A stretch of DNA of 64,000 nucleotides from Rosistilla ulvae. GTDB lineage: Bacteria; Planctomycetota; Planctomycetia; Pirellulales; Pirellulaceae. The stretch is from NCBI RefSeq assembly GCF_007741475.1, contig NZ_CP036261.1, positions 6,263,798 to 6,327,797 on the forward strand, written 5' to 3'. Positions 11,685 through 59,662 of this stretch are shown here, in pieces (position 1 is the first letter of the stretch; each line of letters opens with the position of its first letter). Both the position numbers and the translations under genes were made by a program. Under the pieces are notes generated by a model. It saw only the letters and a program-made list of their open reading frames with translations. It ran no database searches and was not told the origin of the DNA.

Positions 11685-12224
11685 TTAGCTGGCGGCTTGG
11701 TCGGAGAGGAACTTGGTTATTTGTTCGACGATCTGGTCGGGTGTTTGGTCGCTGACATCGATCCGTAGATTGCCGACTTCGCGATAAAGCGGTTCGCGCG
11801 CCGCCATCAACTGACGCACCTCTTGCAGCATCGGATGTTCGGTCAAGCTAGGCCGGCGGCTGGCGCTGGTTGCATCGGCTTCGATCCGCTCGACCAGCAC
11901 TTCGGGTCGCCCGTCGAGCCAGATCGCTTGGCCGGTCTGGGCGATCATGTTGCGGTTCTCCGGTCGCAGGATCGCTCCGCCGCCTAACGCGATCACTTGC
12001 CGCGGCGTCTTGCTGAGCGCTTCGATCGCTGCGGTTTCGAGATCGCGGAATCCCGGCTCGCCGTGGGCTGCAAAGATCTTGGCGATCGAGACTCCCGCGC
12101 GGCGTTCGATCTCATCGTCCGAATCGATCCAAGTACAACCAATTCGCGCGGCGAGAACCCGTGCGACCGACGACTTTCCCGACCCGCGATAACCTATCAA
12201 ATAGAGATGTTTCGAATTCAACAA
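11685..12224 (-). CDS. aroK: Shikimate kinase
   Basis: The 179-residue protein has the family length and motifs: Walker A GYRGSGKSS, the shikimate-binding DSDDEIERRAG with the following GEPGFRDLE, and the GGGA loop (VIALGGGAILR). The lid contains SRRPSL. It phosphorylates shikimate in aromatic amino-acid synthesis. The start is a TTG at 12224 (or the TTG at 12221); no ATG lies early enough to keep the P-loop strand. It begins 10 bp after the TMEM43-TerB gene, so it is the last gene of locus A. Confidence 0.92.
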   Translation of the reverse strand: MLNSKHLYLIGYRGSGKSSVARVLAARIGCTWIDSDDEIERRAGVSIAKIFAAHGEPGFRDLETAAIEALSKTPRQVIALGGGAILRPENRNMIAQTGQAIWLDGRPEVLVERIEADATSASRRPSLTEHPMLQEVRQLMAAREPLYREVGNLRIDVSDQTPDQIVEQITKFLSDQAAS

Positions 12225-12234
12225 GCGTGTGCTT

Positions 12235-13695
12235 TCAGGCAGGTGTTGGTGTGGCGATCCCGCGTCGGACGCGGTCGATCATTTCGCGAATCGTCTGATC
12301 GTCGTAACCGATCTGTTTGCTGACCTTCCGGATCGTGCGAATTTCATAGTTGGAGAGCGAGCCGTCGGCCATTGCCAAGCGAATCAGGTTTTGCAAGTGA
12401 TCGTCGTTCGATTCGGCCGCCGCTTCGGTCGCTCGATTCTCCTTGGCACGCTTAATCATCGCATCGCATTTCGCTTTGTCCCAGCCCTGTTTGCGAGCCC
12501 ACTGCGATAGCACTTTTGCTTCGCCGGCGTCGAGCTTGGCGTCCGAAAATGCCAGCTGCGCCAGTTCCAAAAACTCCAGATCTTTCATCTCTTCATACCC
12601 AAGCTGATGGCCGTATTGTTGGTCCAGGTCCTGCTTGAGGATTTGTTGTGAGGCTTGGCCTCGTTGGCGAATCCAATAGATGATCGCCACGATTCCGATC
12701 GCGATCGCTGCCAATATGAAAGGATGAGATGCAAGGTAACCGCTGGCGATCGTAAGCAGTGCCAGCGGAAGGCCGATCAGCAGGGAGATCAGGAACGTTC
12801 CCGTTTCGGCGATCGAACCGATCACCGGAATGTGGAACAGGAAGCCGACGAAAGTCGAGCAGAGGATCATCATCCCGATCACGACCGCAGCGGTACCGAT
12901 CCCGCGGACGATCCATTTCAACCGTTGGATATGGGACTTCATCGACGCCAAGGCCGTCGGGCGGTCCCCCGCCACGATGTAATGGAGGTTGCCCGAATCT
13001 TGGATGATTTGATTGATAAATCCCGTGCGTTGGTGTGATTGGTCGGCGACGCCCCGCCCCGATGCGGACTTTCCAAAATAGGTCGCCAATGCGGGGACTG
13101 GAATTCCCGTGTAGCGGACGCGTTCATCGCCGAGGTTGCCCGACCGATTCTTCGACAGGTAGAAGTATTCGCCTTGTGGCTGCAGACGCAAAGCGGTGCC
13201 GGCCGGGGAAAGGGTAAGGGCGTTGGGGCGAATCGGATCGTAGCCGTCGACGAATTCGATCAATTGGCTGTCGACTGGCAACTCACCAACTCGATATTCC
13301 GGCGGGTGCAGTGAAGTCGAAGAGCATTGCTGATGAACGCCGCTGTTTCGCGAATTGCTCTCGACGCTACTCTTCCATTTCATCGACCAGCGGTCGTGAT
13401 CATCGTCTTTGTCGTGGTCCCAGCAATAGATTTCAGCGCTTCGCGCGACGGTCAGGTAGCCGGTGAACGAATCGACGTATTTTCCGGGGTACGTTAATCC
13501 AGCATCCATCGATCCCGTCAGCGAGAAGTTTGCTCCCGGTTTCGCATCGTCGGGAACTGCAACTTCGGTGGTCTTCGCGGCTGCTTTGTAGTAGTCGTAT
13601 CTTGTCTCGTTGCACCAGAGTGCCGCCATTGCAGCGAGCATCACGACGGGACCAATCACAATCCCGCCCCAGCGGCTTTTTTCTTTTCGAGCCAT
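12235..13695 (-). CDS. TMEM43-like membrane protein fused to a TerB-like domain
   Basis: The 486-residue product has an N-terminal membrane helix (about residues 10-26), then a roughly 230-residue extracytoplasmic region with PPEYRVGELPVDS and RVRYTGIPVP. Three or four helices follow (about 265-345). This order matches the TMEM43/LUMA family (PF07787). The C-terminal 110 residues form a helical TerB-like domain with two repeats of the type LAQLAFSDAKLDAGEAKVL and LIRLAMADGSLSNYEIRTI, where acidic residues bind metal in TerB. The ATG at 13695 has AGGTG upstream; an upstream in-frame start at 13710 is less likely. Role unknown; probably a membrane stress or quality-control component acting with the two genes before it. 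Confidence 0.68.
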   Translation of the reverse strand: MARKEKSRWGGIVIGPVVMLAAMAALWCNETRYDYYKAAAKTTEVAVPDDAKPGANFSLTGSMDAGLTYPGKYVDSFTGYLTVARSAEIYCWDHDKDDDHDRWSMKWKSSVESNSRNSGVHQQCSSTSLHPPEYRVGELPVDSQLIEFVDGYDPIRPNALTLSPAGTALRLQPQGEYFYLSKNRSGNLGDERVRYTGIPVPALATYFGKSASGRGVADQSHQRTGFINQIIQDSGNLHYIVAGDRPTALASMKSHIQRLKWIVRGIGTAAVVIGMMILCSTFVGFLFHIPVIGSIAETGTFLISLLIGLPLALLTIASGYLASHPFILAAIAIGIVAIIYWIRQRGQASQQILKQDLDQQYGHQLGYEEMKDLEFLELAQLAFSDAKLDAGEAKVLSQWARKQGWDKAKCDAMIKRAKENRATEAAAESNDDHLQNLIRLAMADGSLSNYEIRTIRKVSKQIGYDDQTIREMIDRVRRGIATPTPA

Positions 13696-13760
13696 CGAGG
13701 CACCTGTCAAATCAATCGGGAAGTTGACGCCGGCGAGCGGCTATTGGACGCAACGCGTCA

Positions 13761-15143
13761 CTAGGGTTCAATACGCAATTGCAAGCGGTTTTGCCGATGA
13801 TCGTATCCGACAATACTTCCTTCCCCGCTCCACGGGCGATCGGTCGCTTGGTCGAATTCATCCGCCAAGGAACGCGGGATGAACATCGTGACCGGCATCA
13901 CGGGGTCGATCGTTTGCCCGATCACAACGTGTCCATCGGAGTAGGCGTGATCTTTGCTGCTACTGCTGTAGAGTTCCCGACGTTGCGGAATCAGGTTCAA
14001 CTGCATCGGCAATTCGCGAACGGCATCGACGATTCGGTCGACTTGCCTATCGTCGCCGATCACCGATTGAATCATCTCCAGCGTTGCTGCGAAGGTCACG
14101 TCGGGTTCTTCGCCAGCCGCCGGGGTCGGCGGTTTCGAGACGCCCCGGCCGCTAGCGATCGTTTCGACGGTAGCTGCTTCAACAATTTCTTTCGACGGCG
14201 CCAGTTGCATCGCCAGCGAATGGTTCCAGTCGGGCCAACGCGGGATATCGATGCGAATCTTCGTTTCCCAAAGAATCTGATTCGAGCCGAGACTCATCGT
14301 AAAACAAGGCTTATCGGGCAGTTGAAGCTCCAGCGGGATCAGCGTTTCCTTGTTCCCGGGCAGGATGCGAAGCTCGTCGACAAACTTTCCGCCGCGGAAT
14401 AGTTCGTGGCGATGCGTCCGCCGATTGCTTCCCGAGCCCGAGACGCAGACCTCGGTACCGGTCACCGACCAGATCACCGAATTGATCGCGATGTCTTTCG
14501 TGGGATGAACGCGAAGCGTCGCTCGAAGCGTTTCCCCAGGCTGAAAGCTTTCCTGATTGAGCGTGTATTCGACTTGTCCCAATAGTTTTTTTGGCAGGTA
14601 CTTTTTAAGGAACCACCAGATGCCGTAGCCGATTGCAATGGGGATTCCAAAGATCCAGAGCATTGGGTTGAGCAGCATGAACAACGCGACGCCGATGAAA
14701 ACGAATTTCACGACCCCCCCAACGAGCGGGCTGGCTGTCGCCTTTTCCGCAACTCCCGCCTCGGGGGCTTTGGAGCTGACGACTTGATACGGCCGCGATT
14801 CCTTTGGGTCGAATGCCCAAGGGATATCGGCGGTTGCGTGGACGTAGTGGTCGACGCTCAGAAACCTGCCGTGATAGGTTGGTGGCCATGCCGAGACGGG
14901 CAGGTCGAAGCGGTAGCGATGTTCTTCGCCGCTGCGCCATTGCCCTTGGAACAGCACCTCGGAGTGTAGATCGTGCGAATCGATGTTGCCTCGGCCGTGG
15001 GTCGCCCAGCCGCTGCGAACCTGGAGCGCTTTGCATTGGACATCGTCATCGGCGCGAACGACGACGCTGCCGCGAATTCGGTCGTTAGATGTGTAGAGGC
15101 GGTCGGGTTCGTCGAGTTCGATTGCCAAGCTGCATTTTGCCAT
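13761..15143 (-). CDS. Arrestin-like membrane protein of locus A
   Basis: The 460-residue protein begins with a beta-rich domain (about 1-125) with the arrestin/Spo0M-like segment PPTYHGRFLSVDHYVHATAD. A hydrophobic hairpin of two helices (about 155-195, VKFVFIGVALFMLLNPMLW...) follows, then a second beta domain (about 200-310) with SFQPGETLRATLRVH, and a soluble tail. The start ATG at 15143 overlaps the ATPase stop codon as TGATG, so translation is coupled. The family assignment is by pattern only. The single-domain protein of locus B shares the P-x-TY-x-G-x-x-L pattern. Confidence 0.55.
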   Translation of the reverse strand: MAKCSLAIELDEPDRLYTSNDRIRGSVVVRADDDVQCKALQVRSGWATHGRGNIDSHDLHSEVLFQGQWRSGEEHRYRFDLPVSAWPPTYHGRFLSVDHYVHATADIPWAFDPKESRPYQVVSSKAPEAGVAEKATASPLVGGVVKFVFIGVALFMLLNPMLWIFGIPIAIGYGIWWFLKKYLPKKLLGQVEYTLNQESFQPGETLRATLRVHPTKDIAINSVIWSVTGTEVCVSGSGSNRRTHRHELFRGGKFVDELRILPGNKETLIPLELQLPDKPCFTMSLGSNQILWETKIRIDIPRWPDWNHSLAMQLAPSKEIVEAATVETIASGRGVSKPPTPAAGEEPDVTFAATLEMIQSVIGDDRQVDRIVDAVRELPMQLNLIPQRRELYSSSSKDHAYSDGHVVIGQTIDPVMPVTMFIPRSLADEFDQATDRPWSGEGSIVGYDHRQNRLQLRIEP

Positions 15144-15748
15144 CAGCCGACTCCAATCTGCTGTTGAAAGCGTTCGTATAAATCGAATTCGATCGCGCGG
15201 ATATCGCTGCCATGGCGTGCCATCCAATCGGCTGCCTCGGCTTCGCTGATTTGCGGAATCGTTCCGCTGCGAAGTTGGGCCAGCTGAATTCGTCGGTTGA
15301 GCATTTGGGCTAGTCGTTCTGCCGTGAGATCTTGCCCCACATGATACGTCCAGACGCGGTAGCCTGCACGCCGTAGTGGGCCGGTTAAATCGACATGCGT
15401 CCCCAGCACCAAAGCGCCGCCGCGGGCGAACGCTCGCCGTCGTACGAGCCAAGGCAAACGCTGCGCTTCGTCGATCAGCAGCGGTTGGCCGTGCGGAATC
15501 GGCGGACATCGCTCGTCTTCGGGCAGATAGACGTATGCTGCCTCGGGGGCCTGAGCCGCGATCGACAATAGATGCGTTGTCTTGCCGCGACCACAGTCGG
15601 CGATGAACTGCAATGCGGTTTGCGGTTGCTGCAGGCGATCGATGCAGTGGGCGACATCGACCACGGCAGCTCGCACACGGTCGTCCCGCGTCAGTTCGCC
15701 AAACGGATTGCGGAGCAGGTTCATCGCCGCAAAGGGTTGCCAGTCCAT
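15143..15748 (-). CDS. Short P-loop ATPase of locus A
   Basis: The 201-residue protein opens with LLRNPFGELTRDDRV, has a Walker A-like ADCGRGKTT (residues 50-58) and a Walker B PLLIDEAQRL (89-98), as in small AAA/ExeA-like ATPases. The Walker A lacks the usual Gly before Lys-Thr spacing of GxxGxGKT in its first part (it reads DCGRGKTT). The C-terminus GSDIRAIEFDLYERFQQ aligns with DGNLRELWFAMYDWYQ of the locus B ATPase. No sensor-2 or DNA-binding domain is seen. The ATG at 15748 lies 5 bp after surE; an in-frame ATG at 15766 would overlap surE. Confidence 0.66.
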   Translation of the reverse strand: MDWQPFAAMNLLRNPFGELTRDDRVRAAVVDVAHCIDRLQQPQTALQFIADCGRGKTTHLLSIAAQAPEAAYVYLPEDERCPPIPHGQPLLIDEAQRLPWLVRRRAFARGGALVLGTHVDLTGPLRRAGYRVWTYHVGQDLTAERLAQMLNRRIQLAQLRSGTIPQISEAEAADWMARHGSDIRAIEFDLYERFQQQIGVG

Positions 15749-15753
15749 CCGCC

Positions 15754-16506
15754 CTACAGTTCCCATGTCTTCATTGGCGACAGCAGTTCCTGACGCGTCA
15801 GGTCGAACTTTAGCGGAGAGACCGTAACAAAACCTTCCGCCAACGCGTTGAGGTCGGTGTTGTGGTCGGTCGGCGCGGGAGCTGGATCGACAGTCGCCCA
15901 GTAGTAGTCTCGGTTGTTGGGATCCTGGCGTTTGATGTACTGGCTGCCGTAGTGTCCGATGCCCATCGGGACGACACGCACTTCCGCCGGCTGACGCGTC
16001 GCGGCGGTCGGGATGTTGATGTTGAACAGGCCCGCTTTCGCTTCGTCGCGGGCGATGATCTTCATCACGATCTCGCGAGCGATCTCGGCGGCTCGGCGAT
16101 AATCGGCGTGGGGATCGTATTCGAGCGAAACGGCGAAGCTGGTGACGCCAAAAAAAGCAGCTTCGATCGCGGCGGCAACCGTTCCCGAATAGAGGACGTT
16201 GATGCCAGCGTTCAGCCCGCTGTTGATGCCGCTGATCACCACGTCGGGGCGATGTTCGCAGAGTTCGGAAATACCCAGTTTGACGCAATCCGCTGGCGAT
16301 CCGTCGACAGCAAATGCCAGTCGATCGTTTTCGCGGAAGACTTCTTTATAGGTCAGCGGAGTCAGGTAGGTGATCGAATGCCCGACGCCGCTCTGCTCGG
16401 TTGTCGGGGCGCAGGTTTGGACATCGCCCAGCGGCGTGAACTCTCGTTCCATCGCCTCCAGCCCCGGCGCGAAGATTCCATCATCGTTTGTTAACATAAT
16501 ACGCAT
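15754..16506 (-). CDS. surE: 5'/3'-nucleotidase SurE
   Basis: The 250-residue protein starts MRIMLTNDDGIFAPGL, the SurE signature with the metal-binding Asp pair. It continues with APTTEQSGVGHSIT, GSPADCVKLG and SGINSGLNAGINVLYSGTV, all family hallmarks. SurE removes phosphate from nucleoside monophosphates and other phosphoesters and is linked to stationary-phase survival. The ATG at 16506 fits the family N-terminus. It is the first gene of locus A, with the ATPase start 5 bp downstream, though its role may be unrelated to the rest. Confidence 0.95.
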   Translation of the reverse strand: MRIMLTNDDGIFAPGLEAMEREFTPLGDVQTCAPTTEQSGVGHSITYLTPLTYKEVFRENDRLAFAVDGSPADCVKLGISELCEHRPDVVISGINSGLNAGINVLYSGTVAAAIEAAFFGVTSFAVSLEYDPHADYRRAAEIAREIVMKIIARDEAKAGLFNINIPTAATRQPAEVRVVPMGIGHYGSQYIKRQDPNNRDYYWATVDPAPAPTDHNTDLNALAEGFVTVSPLKFDLTRQELLSPMKTWEL

Positions 16507-16765
16507 CGTTGATCAGCTCCTTGTGTTATGCAGAGCAACGTAGCATCAATGTTCTCGATTTTGAACAGGGCGCCGCGAGCGAGCTGCGTCTCCTGGTCCC
16601 TTACCGCTTTGCTTGTCATGATCCCGGGCAATCGGTAATCTTTAATACGATTCGTGGCTGCTGGCTGCGACGACGCTCGCCGATCCAAAACTACCTTGGC
16701 TCCGGGCCTTTTGCGACCCGTCGGTTGGCGGCGTCCGACATTTCATCGCCCCAAGGTTTCTCGTC

Positions 16766-18136
16766 GTGAGCACACCCAATTTTTCGTCGCGCAATTGGCT
16801 GGTAGGGATCTGGATCGCGCTGGCGGGATGTTTGGTCGTGGCGTTGCAGGTCACTGGTCGCTTGCACCCGCAGCAGGTTCCCGACTCGCCGAGTTATCTC
16901 GAGTTCCCTTTTGATTCGTTTGCGGCTGCATTGAAGAGCATTCGCACGCCGGTCTACCCCGCGATTCTTGAGCTGTTTGAGTTGACGGGGGCGATGTCGT
17001 TGCTTCCTCACTTTCAGTTGCTGGTGCATCTGATCGCTTGCGCGATGTTGGCCCTTGGGTTCTCCAAAATCGGGATCCCTCGTTGGCAGACGTTTCTGAT
17101 GGCCGTAGCGTCGCTGTTGAGTATCACCCTATGGTTTAATGTCAACCTGATCTCGACCGATTCGCTGGCTGTTTCGATGAGTCTGATCACCTGCAGTCTA
17201 CTGCTGATGTACTGCAACACGCGATCGCGTTGGCTGCTGCTTGCGATCAGCCTGATGTCGATCCTAACCATCCTGTGCCGTCCGGCGTATCTATTCCTGG
17301 TCGGCTTTTTGCCAGCTGCGGCGGCGTTGATCTGGCGGGACGAGGGGCTCGCTTGGATGCCAACGATGCGTCGGTGCGGCGTGTTGATTGTTGCGAGTCT
17401 GGCCCCAGTGGTCCTCTATTCGTTGATCCGGTTAGTCGTCGTGGGGCAGTTTGGTGTTGTCGCGTTTGGCAGCCAGAACCTCGCTGGCGTCACGGTCCAG
17501 TTCCTGGATCAAGAGGTCGTCAAGCAGCTGCCAGCGGATCAGCAGGCGTTCGCACAACATGTGCTCGATTCTCGCATCGATTGGTATGCGGAGCATCCCG
17601 CGTTGTCCGAAGGGATGGGGTACCAAACGATGGAGGATCGTTGGAATGCGATGATCTACGAAGTGGTCGTCCCAACGGCCAGCCGCGAATTCGGTGACAG
17701 CGTACTGCGACAACACGCGGAGATCTCGAGCTTGAATCGCGAGATCATGCTCCGAAAGCCACTGGCCTATGCGATCTGGATTGCCAAAGCGATCAGGCAG
17801 ACAGTTCGGATCACGCTGGCCGACATCGGCATGCATCCTCCCTTTTTTCTCTTGATGTTGTGCGCGGTGGCGGCATTGATCTTGTTGCCCTTGTGGCCTA
17901 TCAGTGACAGGCTATCGAGTTCGGGAGAATCCGTGTTGCCCAATGGCACGCGGGCAAACGTGTTGTTGACATCACTGGCATTGCTCTACGCGGTTTTGGC
18001 AATGCTTCCAGTGATCCTCACCTCCGCTCCGTTGGGCCGATTTGTCGACGCAGCGACGGTTTTTGTTCCGGGAGCGATCATTGTTTTGCTATCGCAACAC
18101 TTGCAAAACACGTTGCATGCGCGGCAACGTCGCTAA
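16766..18136 (+). CDS. Polytopic membrane protein, GT-C glycosyltransferase-like
   Basis: The 456-residue protein has about ten hydrophobic segments. The first loop carries PDSPSYLEFPF and then IRTPVYPAILELF, resembling the Asp-containing loop and the RPPGYP-type motif of dolichyl-phosphate-mannose/ArnT-like GT-C transferases. A large loop (about 235-335) precedes the last helices and is periplasmic in this topology. It would transfer a sugar from a lipid-linked donor outside the membrane. The start is a GTG at 16766 with AAGG upstream. Divergent from surE across a 259-bp gap. Family assignment is moderate. Confidence 0.6.
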   Translation: MSTPNFSSRNWLVGIWIALAGCLVVALQVTGRLHPQQVPDSPSYLEFPFDSFAAALKSIRTPVYPAILELFELTGAMSLLPHFQLLVHLIACAMLALGFSKIGIPRWQTFLMAVASLLSITLWFNVNLISTDSLAVSMSLITCSLLLMYCNTRSRWLLLAISLMSILTILCRPAYLFLVGFLPAAAALIWRDEGLAWMPTMRRCGVLIVASLAPVVLYSLIRLVVVGQFGVVAFGSQNLAGVTVQFLDQEVVKQLPADQQAFAQHVLDSRIDWYAEHPALSEGMGYQTMEDRWNAMIYEVVVPTASREFGDSVLRQHAEISSLNREIMLRKPLAYAIWIAKAIRQTVRITLADIGMHPPFFLLMLCAVAALILLPLWPISDRLSSSGESVLPNGTRANVLLTSLALLYAVLAMLPVILTSAPLGRFVDAATVFVPGAIIVLLSQHLQNTLHARQRR

Positions 18137-18406
18137 TCCACAGGACGCGTGGGTCTTCGACGTGGGGTTGCTTCTCGCGAAGTGTCCCTGCCGGAGCGGT
18201 GATTCGCTAGATCTTCATCGACGGTCCAACGCCATCGAAAGTTGGGACACACTGCCTCGCGGGACTCGTGTTAACTGAATCATTTGGCGGGCAGGAACGC
18301 TCCGTTTCCGATTCGCCTATACTGATGTGTGCTTTGGTCGCATCTGGCGTTTGTCCGATGCGAACCGCGAATCAACCGTCGGCCCAACTTTACGGAGGAC
18401 GCTCGG

Positions 18407-20098
18407 ATGAGTATTCGTTGTGCAGAGAGAGTGCCGGTCGCGAAACAGATCGCGTTGATCTCGGAGTCCGCTGTTTTGTGCGATAGCTTGGTCGATCGGG
18501 CCAGGCAGCGATCGGTCGGTCTGTCGCACGTCGTGTCGGTCGACAAAGTGTTGGGGGCGACGCTTGCCGATTTTCTCCTCCGCATCGCAGCGGATCCAGA
18601 GACCGATGCGATTGGGATCTGCGTCGATTCGATCGACGATGTCGAGGCGTTGATCGAAGCGGCCGGTGAATGTTGTGGTCGCAAGCCGATCGTGATCTAC
18701 ACGCCGAGAACCTTTGAATCGTCGGCACGCAACATTCTGCGTGAAGGCGGCTGGTTGGATCGCGACCGCATGGATGACGCTCTCTTCCGCAAGTGTGGCA
18801 TGGTACGAGTTGCGGCGCCGGACGATGTTGTTGATGCCGCTGCCTTTCTATCGCGAAAGCCACGCGTGTCAGGGGCTCGCGTTGCGATCATTGCCAATGC
18901 CAGCGGGATCGGTCGGGTTGCTGTCGAAGCGATGCAAGATCGCCGCAGCGTGTTGGCGGAATTGGAGCCGTGCACCATCGAATCGCTAAAACGTTTGCTG
19001 CCCGAGCACGGCGAGATCGCAAGCCCGTTCGATGGCACTGGCTGTTCCGCCTCGCAACGGTTTGCCGATGCCGTCGGTTGCGTCTTGGAAGACGGCAACG
19101 CGGATGTGGTGCTTGTGCTCTGGAGTCCGCCGGCGTCAACTGAACTTCGCGAAGCGGCGACGCTTTGGATCGATCGTTGCCGCGATTCGACGAAGCTGGT
19201 GTTGGCGGTGGTGATGGGAGAGGCTGGGGCGACGGCGGTTGAGCCGTTGTTGCAAGCTGCGGGCATCGCAAGCTTTCGATCGCCGCAACAAGCGATCATG
19301 GCACTCGATTATCTATTGCAACAGCGAGGCCACCGCGAGTATTTGGATCAACCGGCCCGCAGCTATCAGCTGCGTAGCGATTGCAGTCCGTTGATCGTGC
19401 AACAAACGCTATCCGACGCGGTCCGAGATTCGATCGAAACGATGGCCGAAGATGCATCGAAGCGGGTGCTGAGCGCTTACGGCATTCCGGTCGCTGAATC
19501 GCTGCGGGCGGGGAGTATCGATGAAGCAGTCGCTTGTGCCGAAGTGCTCCGTTATCCGGTGGTGTTGAAGATCGTCTCGCAGCAGATCGCACACAAGACC
19601 GATGTCGGTGGCGTGGCATTGCATCTGCATGACGCATCGGAAGTCCGAGCTGCGTTTTGCGGATTAATGCGTTCGGCGCGGCAACACGCTCCCGATGCGA
19701 TCGTGCCGGGCGTGACGGTCCAGCCGATGATCGATTCACGCGATGCGTTTGAATTGATTGTGGGCGGCTTCCGCGATCCGGCAATGGGACCGATGTTGAT
19801 GTTGGCGACCGGCGGGATCGCTGGCGAAGCATTGCACGATACGGTCTTTGAGTTGCCGCCGTGGAACACTCCGGTCGCCCGCGGGATGATTCGCTCGTTG
19901 AAGATCTGGCCGTTGATGCAAGGCGTTCGCAATCGCGCGGCGATCGATGTCGATTCGCTTGTCGACGTGATGTTGCGGACGGCGCAGATGCTCACCGATT
20001 GCCCGGAAATTCGACAGCTGACGATGAACCCTTTGCTCGTCTCGCCACACGGCGCCGTCGCGTTGGACGCGCGGATTCATGTCCGCCGCGTTGCCTAA
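18407..20098 (+). CDS. ADP-forming acyl-CoA synthetase-like protein lacking the CoA-binding domain
   Basis: The 563-residue protein starts at the ATG at 18407 behind a GGAGGA site. Residues about 10-105 resemble the first succinyl-CoA-ligase-like domain (QIALISESAVLCDSLV). Residues about 155-310 (GARVAIIANASGIGRVAVEA) match the second. The C-terminal 220 residues form an ATP-grasp domain (LSAYGIPVAESLRAG, VVLKIVSQQIAHKTDVGGVAL). Normal family members add an N-terminal CoA-binding domain and carry SHTG with a phosphohistidine at the end of the first ligase domain; here both are missing (the site reads ARNILREGGWLD). Catalysis by the usual route is doubtful. Confidence 0.72.
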   Translation: MSIRCAERVPVAKQIALISESAVLCDSLVDRARQRSVGLSHVVSVDKVLGATLADFLLRIAADPETDAIGICVDSIDDVEALIEAAGECCGRKPIVIYTPRTFESSARNILREGGWLDRDRMDDALFRKCGMVRVAAPDDVVDAAAFLSRKPRVSGARVAIIANASGIGRVAVEAMQDRRSVLAELEPCTIESLKRLLPEHGEIASPFDGTGCSASQRFADAVGCVLEDGNADVVLVLWSPPASTELREAATLWIDRCRDSTKLVLAVVMGEAGATAVEPLLQAAGIASFRSPQQAIMALDYLLQQRGHREYLDQPARSYQLRSDCSPLIVQQTLSDAVRDSIETMAEDASKRVLSAYGIPVAESLRAGSIDEAVACAEVLRYPVVLKIVSQQIAHKTDVGGVALHLHDASEVRAAFCGLMRSARQHAPDAIVPGVTVQPMIDSRDAFELIVGGFRDPAMGPMLMLATGGIAGEALHDTVFELPPWNTPVARGMIRSLKIWPLMQGVRNRAAIDVDSLVDVMLRTAQMLTDCPEIRQLTMNPLLVSPHGAVALDARIHVRRVA

Positions 20099-20119
20099 GA
20101 TGCACCGCAAATCAAACGA

Positions 20120-20746
20120 TCAAAGATCCATCTGGTCCAGTTCATCGATCAGCGATTCCATCGCATCGTCCACTGCGTCGTGCGGTTCGTCGCGATGATC
20201 GTTCCAACCGAGAGCGACATATCGCTCGGCGGTCGATGGACTCTCCGCAGCAGGCGGAGCGGGCTGGGATGTCGGCGGTGGCGAAGAGGGTGTCACCGGC
20301 GAAGCCGTCTTTTTGGGACTGGGTGCCGACAAGCCAATCTGGATCGTTTTGTTCGCTCGGTTCGCCGAGCAGGCTTTGATCTGCGCGATCGCGTCGTCGA
20401 TCGATTTCAGTTTCGTGAGGTCGATAAAGTAGACGCCGCGGCAGGATCTCAAAGGCGGGTTCCGGTCGCCGGCATGGGCGGCGCGACGAGCGGCGATGCC
20501 GAGCGCCTGCAAATTTCGCAAGCTCTCCTCGGGGGCGTGCCAGCCGAGCAGGATGAAATCGCTGGTTATGCGTTCGAGCATGACTTGGTCGGTCGAATTG
20601 CCTTGCAGCTGCTGCATTGGTCCGATCAGCCGCACGTCGGCTGCTTCGTCGAGCATTAGCCGCGTGACGAGTTTCTCTTCCAAATCGCGATGAGCTTGGT
20701 TTGCGCCAGCGGCTTGGCTGACGACGACGGGCATAACAATAGGCAT
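20120..20746 (-). CDS. Unknown alpha/beta protein with Pro-rich tail, locus B
   Basis: From the ATG at 20746 the protein has 208 residues. An alpha/beta region (about 1-125) contains RLIGPMQQLQGNSTDQVML, FILLGWHAPEESLRN and GVYFIDLTKLKSIDDAI. A Pro/Ser-rich linker (about 137-160) leads to an acidic C-terminus ending in DELDQMDL. No signal peptide or membrane segment is seen. An alternative ATG at 20818 would add 24 residues and start 11 bp after the ATPase stop. I do not recognise the family. Its position last in locus B suggests it works with the ATPase. Confidence 0.5.
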   Translation of the reverse strand: MPIVMPVVVSQAAGANQAHRDLEEKLVTRLMLDEAADVRLIGPMQQLQGNSTDQVMLERITSDFILLGWHAPEESLRNLQALGIAARRAAHAGDRNPPLRSCRGVYFIDLTKLKSIDDAIAQIKACSANRANKTIQIGLSAPSPKKTASPVTPSSPPPTSQPAPPAAESPSTAERYVALGWNDHRDEPHDAVDDAMESLIDELDQMDL

Positions 20747-20829
20747 TACTGTACTATTCGCGGGGCGAGAAAACTCGAGGGGTCTGTGCACGAAAGGTCG
20801 CGCGGCAACCGTAGGCATTGCGCGGCAGG

Positions 20830-21480
20830 CTAGCGAGACGCGAGCGCCTCGGCTTGATACCAATCATACATGGCGAACCACAGCTCGCGGAGGTTGCCGT
20901 CGAGATCATCCCAGATTTGGTCGATGAAATCATGGGCCGCAGCGATTCGGAGTTTATCTTGGCTCAGTAGTTCGCTGGCCAGTTGTTTGGCCAAGTCGAT
21001 CGTTGCGGCGGTCCGATGCAATTCGCAAAACCCGGGAAGCGGGGCGTGTGCGGTCGCCAGGCAACGGATGCGGCGCAGGCGGCAGACGAACAGTAACGCC
21101 CGGCGGCGGAAGCTGTCCAATTGTTCCAGCCCGTCGACGATCAGCAGCGATCCGGCCGGCTGGCGAATCGCCCAGCGGATGAAGCCTCGCGTCGGATCAC
21201 CGATGCGAAGAGTCTTGGTTTGGACCGAGCTGAAGTCGTCCTGAAGTTTGCCGCTCAGATGCGCTACAAGAGTCGATTTGCCCGAGCCGTGAGGGCCGAC
21301 GATCACCGATCCGACGGCTGATTGAGAACGCAGTTTGCCGGCGAGCGATTCGATGTCGACGCTGGTTTGATCGAAGCGAAAGCGAAGCGCGGCGGGGCGT
21401 ACGCAGCGGGTGGCAAACGGATTGGTCGGTTGACGCCAAGCGGCTTGCCGATCGTGCGGACTAGGCGTCGCTGTCGGCAT
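20830..21480 (-). CDS. Short P-loop ATPase of locus B
   Basis: The 216-residue protein has a Walker A GPHGSGKST (62-70) and a Walker B SLLIVDGLEQL (111-121). Near the start it has RQPTNPFATR, like NPF in the locus A ATPase. The region CLATAHAPLPGFCELHRTA aligns with LVLGTHVDLTGPLRRAGYR of locus A. The C-terminal DGNLRELWFAMYDWYQ matches that of locus A. The two are therefore paralogues. The ATG at 21480 overlaps the upstream stop by 20 bp; the ATG at 21522 is an alternative. The second acidic Walker B residue is Gly-Leu-Glu here, not DE. Confidence 0.66.
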   Translation of the reverse strand: MPTATPSPHDRQAAWRQPTNPFATRCVRPAALRFRFDQTSVDIESLAGKLRSQSAVGSVIVGPHGSGKSTLVAHLSGKLQDDFSSVQTKTLRIGDPTRGFIRWAIRQPAGSLLIVDGLEQLDSFRRRALLFVCRLRRIRCLATAHAPLPGFCELHRTAATIDLAKQLASELLSQDKLRIAAAHDFIDQIWDDLDGNLRELWFAMYDWYQAEALASR

Positions 21481-21838
21481 AACCAAGGAAAAACGGCTGT
21501 TGCCAAACCGTATCGTTTTCATTGGGTAGGAAGATTCGCAGTCGGACGCACCAACGGATTCGCAGCAGTTGCCCGTCGTAGGTCAGCGGGCTCATCGGCA
21601 AAGCGGTGACTAGCGAGTGTTGGTAGCTGTCGCCCAATTTACGCAATTGTTCGCCCGAGACGCGGACAAAGTGGTGGACGGAAAAGTCTTCGTCACCCTT
21701 GCCTTCGGTGTACCATAACACGGACGCTTCGACGCTCTGAATGCCATCGAGACCAATCCGACCGATTCGCCAGTTGCATTCGAGCAGATCGCCAGGTGAG
21801 TAAACACCTTCCTCGCGATCCAGCTGGATGCTGATCAT
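21461..21838 (-). CDS. Single-domain arrestin-like protein, locus B
   Basis: The 125-residue protein is all-beta in pattern: ISIQLDREEGVYSPGDLLE followed by alternating hydrophobic strands and PLTYDGQLLRIRWCVRLRI. This resembles the PPTYHGRFLSVDHYVHATA segment of the locus A membrane protein. There is no signal peptide. The start overlaps the preceding stop as ATGA, and its own stop lies inside the ATPase start. Such overlaps indicate a coupled operon. Family assignment rests on pattern alone. Confidence 0.58.
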   Translation of the reverse strand: MISIQLDREEGVYSPGDLLECNWRIGRIGLDGIQSVEASVLWYTEGKGDEDFSVHHFVRVSGEQLRKLGDSYQHSLVTALPMSPLTYDGQLLRIRWCVRLRIFLPNENDTVWQQPFFLGYADSDA

Positions 21839-22878
21839 AGGTTGGTTGCGGTTGTTGCGCCGTGTGGTAGCACTACGACCGGGAATCTTCGGAAGTACGA
21901 TGGCCAAGGGGAACCCTCTCCGTGGATTACAATCCACCAACTAATTGAATTGTGCGGGCTTTGAAACGAATGCATCGCACTTGGTGGAACTGCTAACGTA
22001 AATTTTCGCTCCCAAGGCTGGTTGGGGTCAATGGTTATTCCGCTGATAGCAAGCACTATTTCTTCAAAAACAGCATGTTTTTCAGTCCTGACGTCGGTTC
22101 CTTGGCGGAATGTGGATAGCTCCTCACAGACTAGCTTAGCCTGGAAAGATTTGAGGGCAGCACGACCGTACTGCGCCACATAGACTTCGCAGGTCTGTCC
22201 GGGTTGTAGCGGATGGTTGCTGATCTCGACGATCGACAGCCCGATCCCAGCCGACTTTTTCAGTTGGATGATGAAGCGGCGGAAGGTCCAGATCCCCGCC
22301 GCACTGATCGGCACGATCAGTATGGTCAGCAGCACCCGCGGCTGGCCTTCGACGATCGACACGATCGATACGCCCAGCAACGACAGCGCACATCCGGTCC
22401 ACATGAAGGCTAACGCGGCGGACGCGGCGAGATTCCAGATCGGCGACGCGATCGTCGGCAAGCGGAACGCGAGCTGCGTGCCGGGGCTTTCGGTAATTCG
22501 CTTCAGCTGAGGGACGTTGGGGAGGTCGTTTTTGCCCAGTTTGCCACGCGGCACCAGTTCGATTTCTGCGGCGCGTTTGGCTAGCGCACTGCGGCGCTCA
22601 TGGCTGGCTCCCACGCCCAAAATTCGATAGGTCACGCCGCTGGTTCCTAGAAAAATCAGCGAGATCGAGGCGATCAGGAGGGTCCAAAATCCGAAGCCGG
22701 GCGTGACGGGAGCTTGGTCGGTGGCGAAGGTGACGATCGCGATGATCAGTCCAAACCCAAAGGATCCCAGCAGGAATAGGGCGGCAAAAAAGAGCGTTTC
22801 GCCAACGGTTCCCCAGATTTGCCATCCCGAACGTCGGCTGCCACGTTTTTTATTAAGAAGGCGAGGCCTGCGGATCAT
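21835..22878 (-). CDS. Membrane protein with C-terminal arrestin-like domain, locus B
   Basis: From the ATG at 22878 the protein has 347 residues. Two helices lie about residues 25-72 (WGTVGETLFFAALFLLG...), and two more about 145-190. The C-terminal 150 residues are beta-rich (HPLQPGQTCEVYVAQYGR, KFTLAVPPSAMHSFQSPH) and end SPWPSYFRRFPVVVLPHG. An ATG at 22926 could extend it by 16 residues. It is the first gene of locus B and faces the PQQ-propeller gene across a divergent gap of 129 bp. Confidence 0.58.
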   Translation of the reverse strand: MIRRPRLLNKKRGSRRSGWQIWGTVGETLFFAALFLLGSFGFGLIIAIVTFATDQAPVTPGFGFWTLLIASISLIFLGTSGVTYRILGVGASHERRSALAKRAAEIELVPRGKLGKNDLPNVPQLKRITESPGTQLAFRLPTIASPIWNLAASAALAFMWTGCALSLLGVSIVSIVEGQPRVLLTILIVPISAAGIWTFRRFIIQLKKSAGIGLSIVEISNHPLQPGQTCEVYVAQYGRAALKSFQAKLVCEELSTFRQGTDVRTEKHAVFEEIVLAISGITIDPNQPWERKFTLAVPPSAMHSFQSPHNSISWWIVIHGEGSPWPSYFRRFPVVVLPHGATTATNL

Positions 22879-23007
22879 CGGTGTGTCGTCGGGGTGATGG
22901 AGAGGGAGTGCGGCAGGGCGGAACATCGGTCGCTGGCCGCCTCGAATGGTTCGGTCTGCTGTATCATATCAATACTTTCCCCACCGTCTCGAACCCCTCG
23001 ACACAAA

Positions 23008-24318
23008 ATGTGCATTCAACAATCCCTTTCGATCGAAGCCGCCAGTCCTCGGCCGCCGCGAGGTATCAAAACTTGGCCGGCCTCGGCGTGGATGGCTATC
23101 GTCTTGGTCCTCGCCTTCACACCGTCGCTTCGCGCCGGCGATTGGCCGCAGATTCTTGGTCCCGAACGCAATGGGATCGCCAGCGATGCGGGGGAGGGAT
23201 TGTGGCAACAGACGCCTCGGGTCGCCTGGCAGATTCCGTGTGGATCGGGATATTCCGGAGTGGCGGTTGTCGATGGGAAGGTTTATTTGTGGCACCGAGT
23301 CGATGACCAAGAGCGACTCGATTGTTGTCGATTGAGCGACGGCCAGCAGCTGTGGCAGGCGGAGTTTCCGGCAACCTACGGCGGTGGATTTAACAACGAT
23401 CGCGGCCCGCGATGCGTGCCGGTGGTCGATCGCGGAACTGTGTATGTCTACGGTGCAGCGGGAGATCTGCACGCCGTCGCCGCATCGGATGGCAAGCCGA
23501 TCTGGTCGCGAGCGCTGCGACACGACTATGCCGCCGAAGACGGCTACTTTGGCGCCGGCAGCACGCCGATTGTCAGCGGCGATACGGTTGTCGTGGCGGT
23601 TGGTGGCGATGATGGCCATGGAATTGTGGGCTTGAATCGCAATTCGGGCAAAACCGTTTGGGCGGCAACCGATCTGACAGCCGACTACGCCTCGCCGATC
23701 GCTTTCGACGCAACGACAGTGATCGTGCCGATGCGTTTCCAAACCGTGGTGCTGAACGCGGCCGATGGCGAGATCGTTTTTGAGATTCCGTTTGGTCAGC
23801 GCGGTCTGAACGTGATTGGTGCGACGCCAACTCGGGTGGGGGAGCGGTTGCTGTTGAGTGCCAGTTATCGGATCGGAGCGGAATTGGTCGATCTGTCGAA
23901 ACGGCCGCCGGAGATCGTGTGGAGCGGCGATGATATTCTCAGCAGCCAATACAATTCGGGAATCGTCCGCGACGGCTACGTCTACGGAATCCATGGACGC
24001 GAGGATATGGGGGCGGCGACGTTGCGGTGCATCGAACTGGCGACCGGCAAGGTCCAGTGGTCCGAGGAGGATTATGGCGTGGCGCATTTGATCGGCGTTG
24101 GCGATCGGTTGATCGCGCAGCGGACCGACGGGACGCTGGAGTTGTTTGCCGCGGATCGGTCGAAGTTCCAATCGCTCGGAAAGATGGAACTGCCGCCGGG
24201 AACCTACCGTGCCTTGCCGGCACTGTCGGGCGGCAAGTTGGTCTGCCGGATGAGCGATGGCGAGCAGAGCAAGTTACTTGCTGTCGATCTGACTGCCGCA
24301 GGGGCCGATCAGAAATAA
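23008..24318 (+). CDS. Secreted PQQ-binding-like beta-propeller protein
   Basis: The 436-residue product has a signal-like hydrophobic segment (about 24-37) ending near SLRA. Then it repeats propeller blades such as GDWPQILGPERNGIA, VVDGKVYLW, RQLLW-type strands and VVDRGTVYVYG, seven or eight in all, as in PQQ-like (YncE/BamB-type) propellers. No conserved quinoprotein disulfide or cytochrome domain is seen, so it is probably a binding or scaffold propeller outside the cytoplasm. The ATG at 23008 was chosen because the upstream frame lacks a signal sequence and overlaps the neighbour's promoter. Confidence 0.8.
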   Translation: MCIQQSLSIEAASPRPPRGIKTWPASAWMAIVLVLAFTPSLRAGDWPQILGPERNGIASDAGEGLWQQTPRVAWQIPCGSGYSGVAVVDGKVYLWHRVDDQERLDCCRLSDGQQLWQAEFPATYGGGFNNDRGPRCVPVVDRGTVYVYGAAGDLHAVAASDGKPIWSRALRHDYAAEDGYFGAGSTPIVSGDTVVVAVGGDDGHGIVGLNRNSGKTVWAATDLTADYASPIAFDATTVIVPMRFQTVVLNAADGEIVFEIPFGQRGLNVIGATPTRVGERLLLSASYRIGAELVDLSKRPPEIVWSGDDILSSQYNSGIVRDGYVYGIHGREDMGAATLRCIELATGKVQWSEEDYGVAHLIGVGDRLIAQRTDGTLELFAADRSKFQSLGKMELPPGTYRALPALSGGKLVCRMSDGEQSKLLAVDLTAAGADQK

Positions 24319-58992: not shown

Positions 58993-59349
58993 TCAGGCGG
59001 AGTGGTTGGTGCGGACGACACGGTCGATCAGGCGTTCGAGCTTCTCACCAGAAAAGTCCATCCTTGCCGCGGCCAACGCAAACAAACGCTTCTCGGATTC
59101 GGACATCTGCCCGTCGGCGGCCATCATCCGGATCAAATCGCTCAAGACAGCTTCCTGTTCCGCCGCGTCGGTCGGCAGTTCCAGTTGGGCGTCATCCCCC
59201 AATGCGTACGAAACCGCAGCGCACAATTCCTGCTCTTCGAATCCGAGTTCCGCACAGCGTTGGCTCAGCAGCGACAGCTCGTGTTCAGCCAATGCGCCAT
59301 CGGCGATCGCCATCACGACAAGGTTTTTCAAATAAGCGATGCGATCCAT
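58993..59349 (-). CDS. TerB-like tellurite-resistance-domain protein
   Basis: The 118-residue product (ATG 59349, GGGA about 12 bases before) is helical with two repeats of the TerB/DjlA-N type: YLKNLVVMAIADGALAEHEL and VLSDLIRMMAADGQMSESEK, each with acidic residues that bind metal in TerB. The upstream reading frame to 59643 is not TerB-like and was rejected. It is followed by yggS, forming a two-gene unit. The TMEM43 fusion at 12235 carries the same domain. Confidence 0.8.
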   Translation of the reverse strand: MDRIAYLKNLVVMAIADGALAEHELSLLSQRCAELGFEEQELCAAVSYALGDDAQLELPTDAAEQEAVLSDLIRMMAADGQMSESEKRLFALAAARMDFSGEKLERLIDRVVRTNHSA

Positions 59350-59662
59350 CGATAGGGTTCCCAAATCATCCGCGAAATATGTCCGCAAGCCGACTTGGCA
59401 TCCACCAGGCTCCGGGAGGGCTAGCGAATCAGCGAGCCTTATCAAACGCGAGCGAAAAACAAGGCACGCCGCAGCAACGATTGCCGGGGGAAAGGTGGTT
59501 GCCACTTGCCAGTCCATTATCTTCGGCATCTTCGGCATTCGCAACCTGCCCAGAATCGCTTCGCGTGGGCTGACTAGAGTTCCTGTATAGGATATCAGCC
59601 GTCGCGCGAATGCGTGCCGGCTGAACCCTAAAACTTCAAGCACCGTTTGGCCCTGGGCCGCT
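59350..59662. other. 313-bp gap between the TerB-like gene and the lipoprotein gene
   Basis: No gene or RNA is seen. The gap holds the downstream region of the duplicated pseudopilin-lipoprotein pair. It includes no convincing terminator. Confidence 0.5.

Follow-up and report, generated by a model that had tools for sequence, protein, structure and literature searches.

A 64,000-nucleotide stretch of the genome of the planctomycete Rosistilla ulvae (assembly GCF_007741475.1, contig NZ_CP036261.1, positions 6,263,798 to 6,327,797; hereafter the window) carries two gene clusters, both on the minus strand and about 5 kb apart, in each of which a small AAA+ ATPase is encoded together with proteins of the arrestin superfamily. 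Cluster A consists of the single-domain ATPase ATPA (201 residues; 15143-15748) and the membrane arrestin arrA (460 residues; 13761-15143). Cluster B consists of arrB2 (347 residues; 21835-22878), a membrane protein with three to four hydrophobic segments and an arrestin C-lobe, arrB1 (125 residues; 21461-21838), a free-standing arrestin N-lobe, and the ATPase ATPB (216 residues; 20830-21480). The existence of this module, the coupling of its genes, their co-occurrence and the folds of their products are well supported, and each cluster may constitute a membrane adaptor or scaffold of the arrestin type that faces the cytosol and is switched by ATP, a reading on which our confidence is evenly divided. 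The ATPA stop codon TGA overlaps the arrA start codon by a single base (TGATG, 15145-15141), whereas the overlaps in cluster B are ATGA between arrB2 and arrB1 and 20 bp between arrB1 and ATPB, all of which, together with the strand and gene layout, agrees with a preliminary description of this region. Promoter and terminator scans yielded no more than was obtained from shuffled sequence.

The distribution of cluster A was analyzed in 149 genomes of the window's family, from which relatives of each protein were collected and each set was aligned separately, as well as in a wider scan of GTDB genomes. An iterated profile search also recruited ABC ATPases, and its scores were used for gene location only, not for homology. 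ATPA and arrA were neighbours in all 20 cluster A regions read in the family, one of them with a gap of about 0.8 kb, and the scan of GTDB genomes with arrA gave 59 loci, 53 of which have ATPA directly upstream, with overlapping reading frames in 44 of these 53. These loci include Rhodopirellula baltica as well as genomes labelled Acidobacteriota, Gemmatimonadota, Myxococcota, Pseudomonadota and Schekmanbacteria, every non-planctomycete case being a metagenome-assembled genome; at least one ATPA-arrA pair was found in each of these phyla, so that the pair occurs in at least six phyla in all. Phylogenetic analysis placed the non-planctomycete arrA sequences on deep branches interleaved with planctomycete lines, with no near-copies, which argues against simple contamination. 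Within the family, cluster A is patchy (41-43 of the 149 genomes), and co-presence of ATPA and arrA is highly significant (p = 8e-29, calculated on related genomes that are not independent samples). Tandem arrA-like genes were also detected at several loci (L342, L350, L290/L355 and L289), and in L350 the ATPase gene is followed by two arrestin genes.

Cluster B is nearly universal in the same family, with ATPB in 136 and arrB2 in 140 of the 149 genomes. The order arrB2-arrB1-ATPB was observed in 27 of the 36 family B regions with ATPB and in all 14 loci from other planctomycete families, many of which belong to other classes, and arrB1 adjoins arrB2 in all loci read. In a phylum-wide sample, arrB2 was present in every one of the 20 genomes that gave a strong match to ATPB; conversely, eight of the nine family genomes devoid of arrB2 are devoid of ATPB as well (Fisher p = 2e-9, kinship ignored). 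The coupling of an ATPase of roughly 200 residues to arrestin-like proteins, initially proposed from the window, thus represents a conserved module in two paralogous forms, whose neighbourhood is kept across families, classes and phyla and is not restricted to close relatives.

The two clusters are very divergent in sequence. Direct BLASTP comparisons of ATPA with ATPB and of arrA with arrB2 showed that the proteins are too distant, with no match for the ATPases, and the suggestion that the latter are paralogues was borne out solely by profile-profile comparison, which aligned ATPA and ATPB over their full length (E = 1.3e-14, or 2e-20 with wider alignments). Both ATPases have an NPF N-terminus, a GxxGxGK Walker A motif, a Thr-His pair that follows strand four and, in the last helix, an invariant arginine seven residues ahead of a tyrosine (R184/Y191 in ATPA and R198/Y205 in ATPB). 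When 30 other AAA_22 or RuvB-like ATPase matches from the same genome were used as controls, the ATPB profile ranked ATPA first, again at full length, and the ATPA profile ranked ATPB third, after RarA-like and RuvB. Homology of the two ATPases within AAA+ is secure at the profile level, and an exclusive sister relation between them is only likely; the possibility that they belong to different families, which would have spoken against the original proposal, does not agree with these comparisons.

With regard to the arrestin proteins, hhalign placed arrB1 on residues 6-121 of arrA, corresponding to its N-lobe (E = 3e-9), and arrB2 on residues 160-322, corresponding to its hairpin and C-lobe (E = 3e-13), and the arrB1 and arrB2 profiles gave no match to each other. 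According to these alignments, arrA is a fusion of the halves that cluster B keeps as two genes. A second fusion was found in locus L281 (5728-7908), where arrB2 and arrB1 are joined in the order opposite to that of arrA, behind two DUF3592 domains, a combination with DUF3592 membrane proteins that was seen in this lineage alone among the loci read. Fusion of the same halves in different orders suggests that arrB1 and arrB2 function together as a single arrestin. In other complete genomes (e.g., G028 and G083), megabases of sequence separate the two clusters, and each form is found across planctomycete classes. The two clusters are therefore ancient paralogues, and their 5-kb spacing is peculiar to the window's genus and does not reflect a recent local duplication, so that the duplication assumed previously stands as an old event and not as a local one.

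The arrA protein comprises an N-lobe (residues 1-121), a membrane hairpin (approximately 140-188) whose two hydrophobic helices fall at about 140-179, and a C-lobe (190-314), followed by a disordered linker and, at the C-terminus, an alpha/beta domain (approximately 350-458). Its assignment to the arrestin clan is supported by Pfam Arrestin_N (E = 1.6e-11; 44.9 bits vs a curated cut-off of 24.9), which was matched by all 21 relatives examined. The AlphaFold2 model (mean predicted local distance difference test score, pLDDT, 86.5) shows two beta-sandwich lobes with a helical hairpin between them, the lobe-to-lobe orientation being less sure (predicted template modelling score 0.62), and its best Foldseek matches in the PDB are Vps26, ARRD-6, TXNIP and arrestins, with E-values down to 3e-16. 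By sequence, the nearest PDB chains are TXNIP (2.8e-6) and ARRDC3 (7e-6), followed by Spo0M. Pfam names neither arrB1 nor arrB2 (best Pfam E-value 0.002), and the arrestin lobe in both was recognized solely through the profile-profile link to arrA; the earlier label "arrestin-like" is thus firm for arrA and applies to the cluster B proteins at the profile level.

Simple hydropathy analysis showed that the arrA hairpin has an uncharged turn of 2-6 residues with positively charged flanks, which, by the positive-inside rule, would place both lobes on the same side of the membrane, facing the cytosol; the hydrophobic segments of arrB2 have a similar pattern by the same simple measure. The strongest conservation in arrA falls on corresponding loops at the hairpin tips of both lobes (T48, G50, G52 and N53; S235, G236, G238 and T243), within the sequences THGRGN and VSGSGSNR-TH. 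These loops probably form a partner site and are a plausible docking point for the ATPase or for cargo. A nearly invariant cysteine was also observed at residue 4 of arrA, within an N-terminal M-x-K-C.

Nucleotide-binding motifs are retained in both ATPases. In ATPA, the Walker A motif GxxGxGKT and the Walker B pair D93-E94 are kept in 56-58 of 58 relatives, with Glu94 itself present in 56, and further signatures are an NPFGE N-terminus, Thr-His at 117-118, Arg184 and Tyr191. Pfam AAA_22 was matched by seven of 21 ATPA family members; for the window protein, Pfam named no family and a sequence search of the PDB gave no match. Pfam gave only general P-loop scores for ATPB, whose AlphaFold2 model (pLDDT 92.9) shows a compact AAA+ core; its nearest Foldseek matches are RFC/ORC/Hda-type proteins, with TM-scores of approximately 0.4-0.5 that indicate similarity at the superfamily level only. 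Walker A, the Walker B aspartate and an AAA+ fold, the last modelled for ATPB only, place these proteins in AAA+. The Walker B motif of ATPB reads D116-G117-x-E119, with Gly117 in 48 and Glu119 in 46 of 51 relatives. Because a glycine stands at 117 and the conserved glutamate follows two positions later, ATPB may bind ATP yet hydrolyse it slowly or differently. A few genomes read DEFEQ at this site.

Comparison with known systems indicates that the folds are familiar and that the system built from them is new: no description of an ATPase-arrestin operon was found in the open-licence literature. Prokaryotic arrestin-clan proteins were known to a 2008 survey only as Spo0M (PMC2515105), which has been associated with sporulation and, in B. 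subtilis, with proteins of cell division (PMC5325327). Spo0M (Pfam PF07070), a soluble protein of bacteria and archaea, shares the arrestin-clan fold and a weak profile similarity with the C-lobe of arrA; however, the window arrA scores below the Spo0M cut-off (20.9 vs 23 bits), some of its relatives reaching E = 2.6e-10, and arrA has a membrane hairpin between its two lobes and a conserved ATPase neighbour, features that these two papers do not report for Spo0M. Vps26 of retromer and Retriever also has two arrestin lobes and includes the best PDB fold matches of arrA (6h7w, 5f0m and 2fau), but it is a peripheral protein bound to Vps35, whereas arrA is predicted to be an integral membrane protein and is paired with an AAA+ ATPase. 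The Vps26 profile did not match the window arrA and matched two of 21 relatives weakly, and no Vps35 or Vps29 gene was seen near the clusters, the genomes themselves not having been searched for them. Alpha-arrestins (TXNIP, ARRDC3 and ARRD-6) come closest to arrA in the sequence comparison with the PDB; they are soluble proteins that recruit ubiquitin ligases, and nothing comparable to this recruitment was seen at arrA. By the tests made, arrA appears not to be a member of the Vps26 or alpha-arrestin families, and may perhaps work like them. As to the ATPases, an AAA+ core and Walker motifs are shared with ExeA/AAA_22-type and RuvB/RarA/ORC-type proteins, and an NPF-like N-terminus with the AAA_22/ExeA type; ATPA and ATPB are distinguished by one small domain, an Arg-x6-Tyr C-terminal signature, coupling to arrestins, and the absence of a DNA-binding, pilus or secretion partner.

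Taken together, it is possible that each cluster produces a protein of the arrestin superfamily that is anchored in the inner membrane through its hairpin and exposes both beta-sandwich lobes to the cytosol, as one chain in cluster A and as two assembling chains in cluster B. The minimal AAA+ ATPase, made in step with the arrestin, would bind these lobes, and its ATP state would flip them between resting and binding conformations, allowing the arrestin to capture, cluster or release its partners, whether membrane proteins or lipids, in the manner of eukaryotic alpha-arrestins and Vps26. Among these steps, a physical complex of ATPase and arrestin is probable; ATP switching is what we infer, and the adaptor or cargo role is a conjecture guessed from the fold. 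A bolder proposal, that these clusters represent a widespread bacterial trafficking-like system in which arrestin/Vps26-type adaptors integral to the membrane sort or cluster membrane proteins and a dedicated AAA+ ATPase loads or releases the adaptors, is tentative and rather doubtful.

Several observations weigh against an ATP-switched membrane arrestin. Six of the 59 arrA loci lack an adjacent ATPA, some of them at contig ends, and in nine family regions ATPB stands apart from the arrestin genes, which occupy another place in the same genome and, where read, still adjoin each other; the coupling is thus not without exceptions. In addition, ATPB usually lacks the catalytic glutamate beside the Walker B aspartate, which makes hydrolysis uncertain, and no conserved third gene points to cargo.

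Other explanations have to be considered. The module might be a signalling switch, in which the ATPase is a STAND/ORC-like nucleotide switch that reports a signal picked up at the membrane by the hairpin or lobes, while the arrestin serves as a scaffold for downstream signalling instead of a trafficking or cargo adaptor. Switch proteins do occur among AAA_22-type ATPases, the degenerate Walker B of ATPB fits slow hydrolysis, and STAS and histidine-kinase genes lie near some B loci; however, no signalling gene is conserved as a neighbour beyond local synteny, and a hairpin turn of 2-6 residues leaves arrA without a periplasmic sensor, all of which makes such a switch improbable, if worth keeping in view. 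A role in the cell envelope or division, with the module scaffolding envelope or cytoskeletal proteins, as has been reported for Spo0M in Bacillus subtilis, appears unlikely. Members of the arrA family match Pfam Spo0M (best E-value 2.6e-10), Spo0M interacts with cytoskeletal division proteins (PMC5325327), and the near-universal presence of cluster B in the family suggests a housekeeping role; on the other hand, no division or cell-wall gene was found among the conserved neighbours, and neither PMC2515105 nor PMC5325327 describes a membrane anchor or an ATPase partner for Spo0M. That the two genes are simply transcribed together while their products work independently would agree with the separation of ATPase and arrestin at nine of the 36 ATPB loci of the family, as well as in another planctomycete family. 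This is very unlikely, however, since the coupling extends over six phyla, the reading frames overlap, both genes are missing together from several genera, and the two paralogous lines show the coupling in parallel. An anti-phage defence role, with an ATPase sensor controlling a membrane effector, can practically be dismissed: an ATPase with a membrane protein is a frequent defence layout and cluster A is patchy, yet PADLOC gave no specific match to the core proteins (weak P-loop and TerB-domain scores only), cluster B occurs in more than 90% of family genomes, unlike defence genes, and the neighbours are housekeeping genes.

Neighbouring genes were also weighed as further parts of the system. 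The TMEM43-TerB gene downstream of arrA (Pfam; 12235-13695, minus strand), previously regarded as the partner in cluster A, was rejected: it adjoins arrA in the window's genus only and was missing from every other A locus read, and two further TMEM43-TerB genes lie about 270 kb from cluster A in the same genome. As the TerB gene is not a conserved partner, the stress-response role that had been derived from it loses its basis; on membrane remodelling, the other role suggested earlier, the evidence tells neither way. Another TerB-domain protein is encoded elsewhere in the window (58993-59643, minus strand; Pfam TerB 1.3e-8). The alpha/beta protein of cluster B (20120-20746, minus strand, with a possible upstream start at 20818), which has a Pro-rich tail and a C-terminal acidic LDxLVDELDxLD motif and belongs to no Pfam family, had also been taken as a partner. 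It was found beside ATPB in 12 of 37 family ATPB loci and is thus an accessory that goes with the ATPase and not a core component; because three of these 12 loci have no nearby arrestin genes, it belongs with ATPB.

None of the remaining candidates, namely the SurE, shikimate kinase, PQQ-propeller, STAS and bacterial PH genes, was retained as a part of the system, since they are neighbours at the local or genus level only. The SurE gene (Pfam; 15754-16506) lies just upstream of ATPA, and shikimate kinase (Pfam; 11685-12224, minus strand) is an ordinary gene at the start of the span. A PQQ-type beta-propeller gene (22819-24318, plus strand) starts divergently beside cluster B, and similar genes were observed in nine other B regions. 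Of the 20 cluster A loci of the family, 10 have a gene for a bacterial PH-domain membrane protein nearby (e.g., L128, 6410-7024), which is probably due to local synteny.

These findings show that two-lobe arrestins which carry their own membrane anchor and are paired with a dedicated AAA+ ATPase are spread over at least six bacterial phyla, and that a split version is present in more than 90% of the genomes of one planctomycete family. The role of arrestin folds in bacteria can now be tested in Rhodopirellula baltica, in which cluster A is present, or in other cultured planctomycetes, and the module bears on the origin of eukaryotic arrestin and Vps26 adaptors. If the trafficking-like proposal were true, it would represent the first ATP-driven arrestin machinery in bacteria and would be relevant to the origin of eukaryotic arrestin-fold adaptors.

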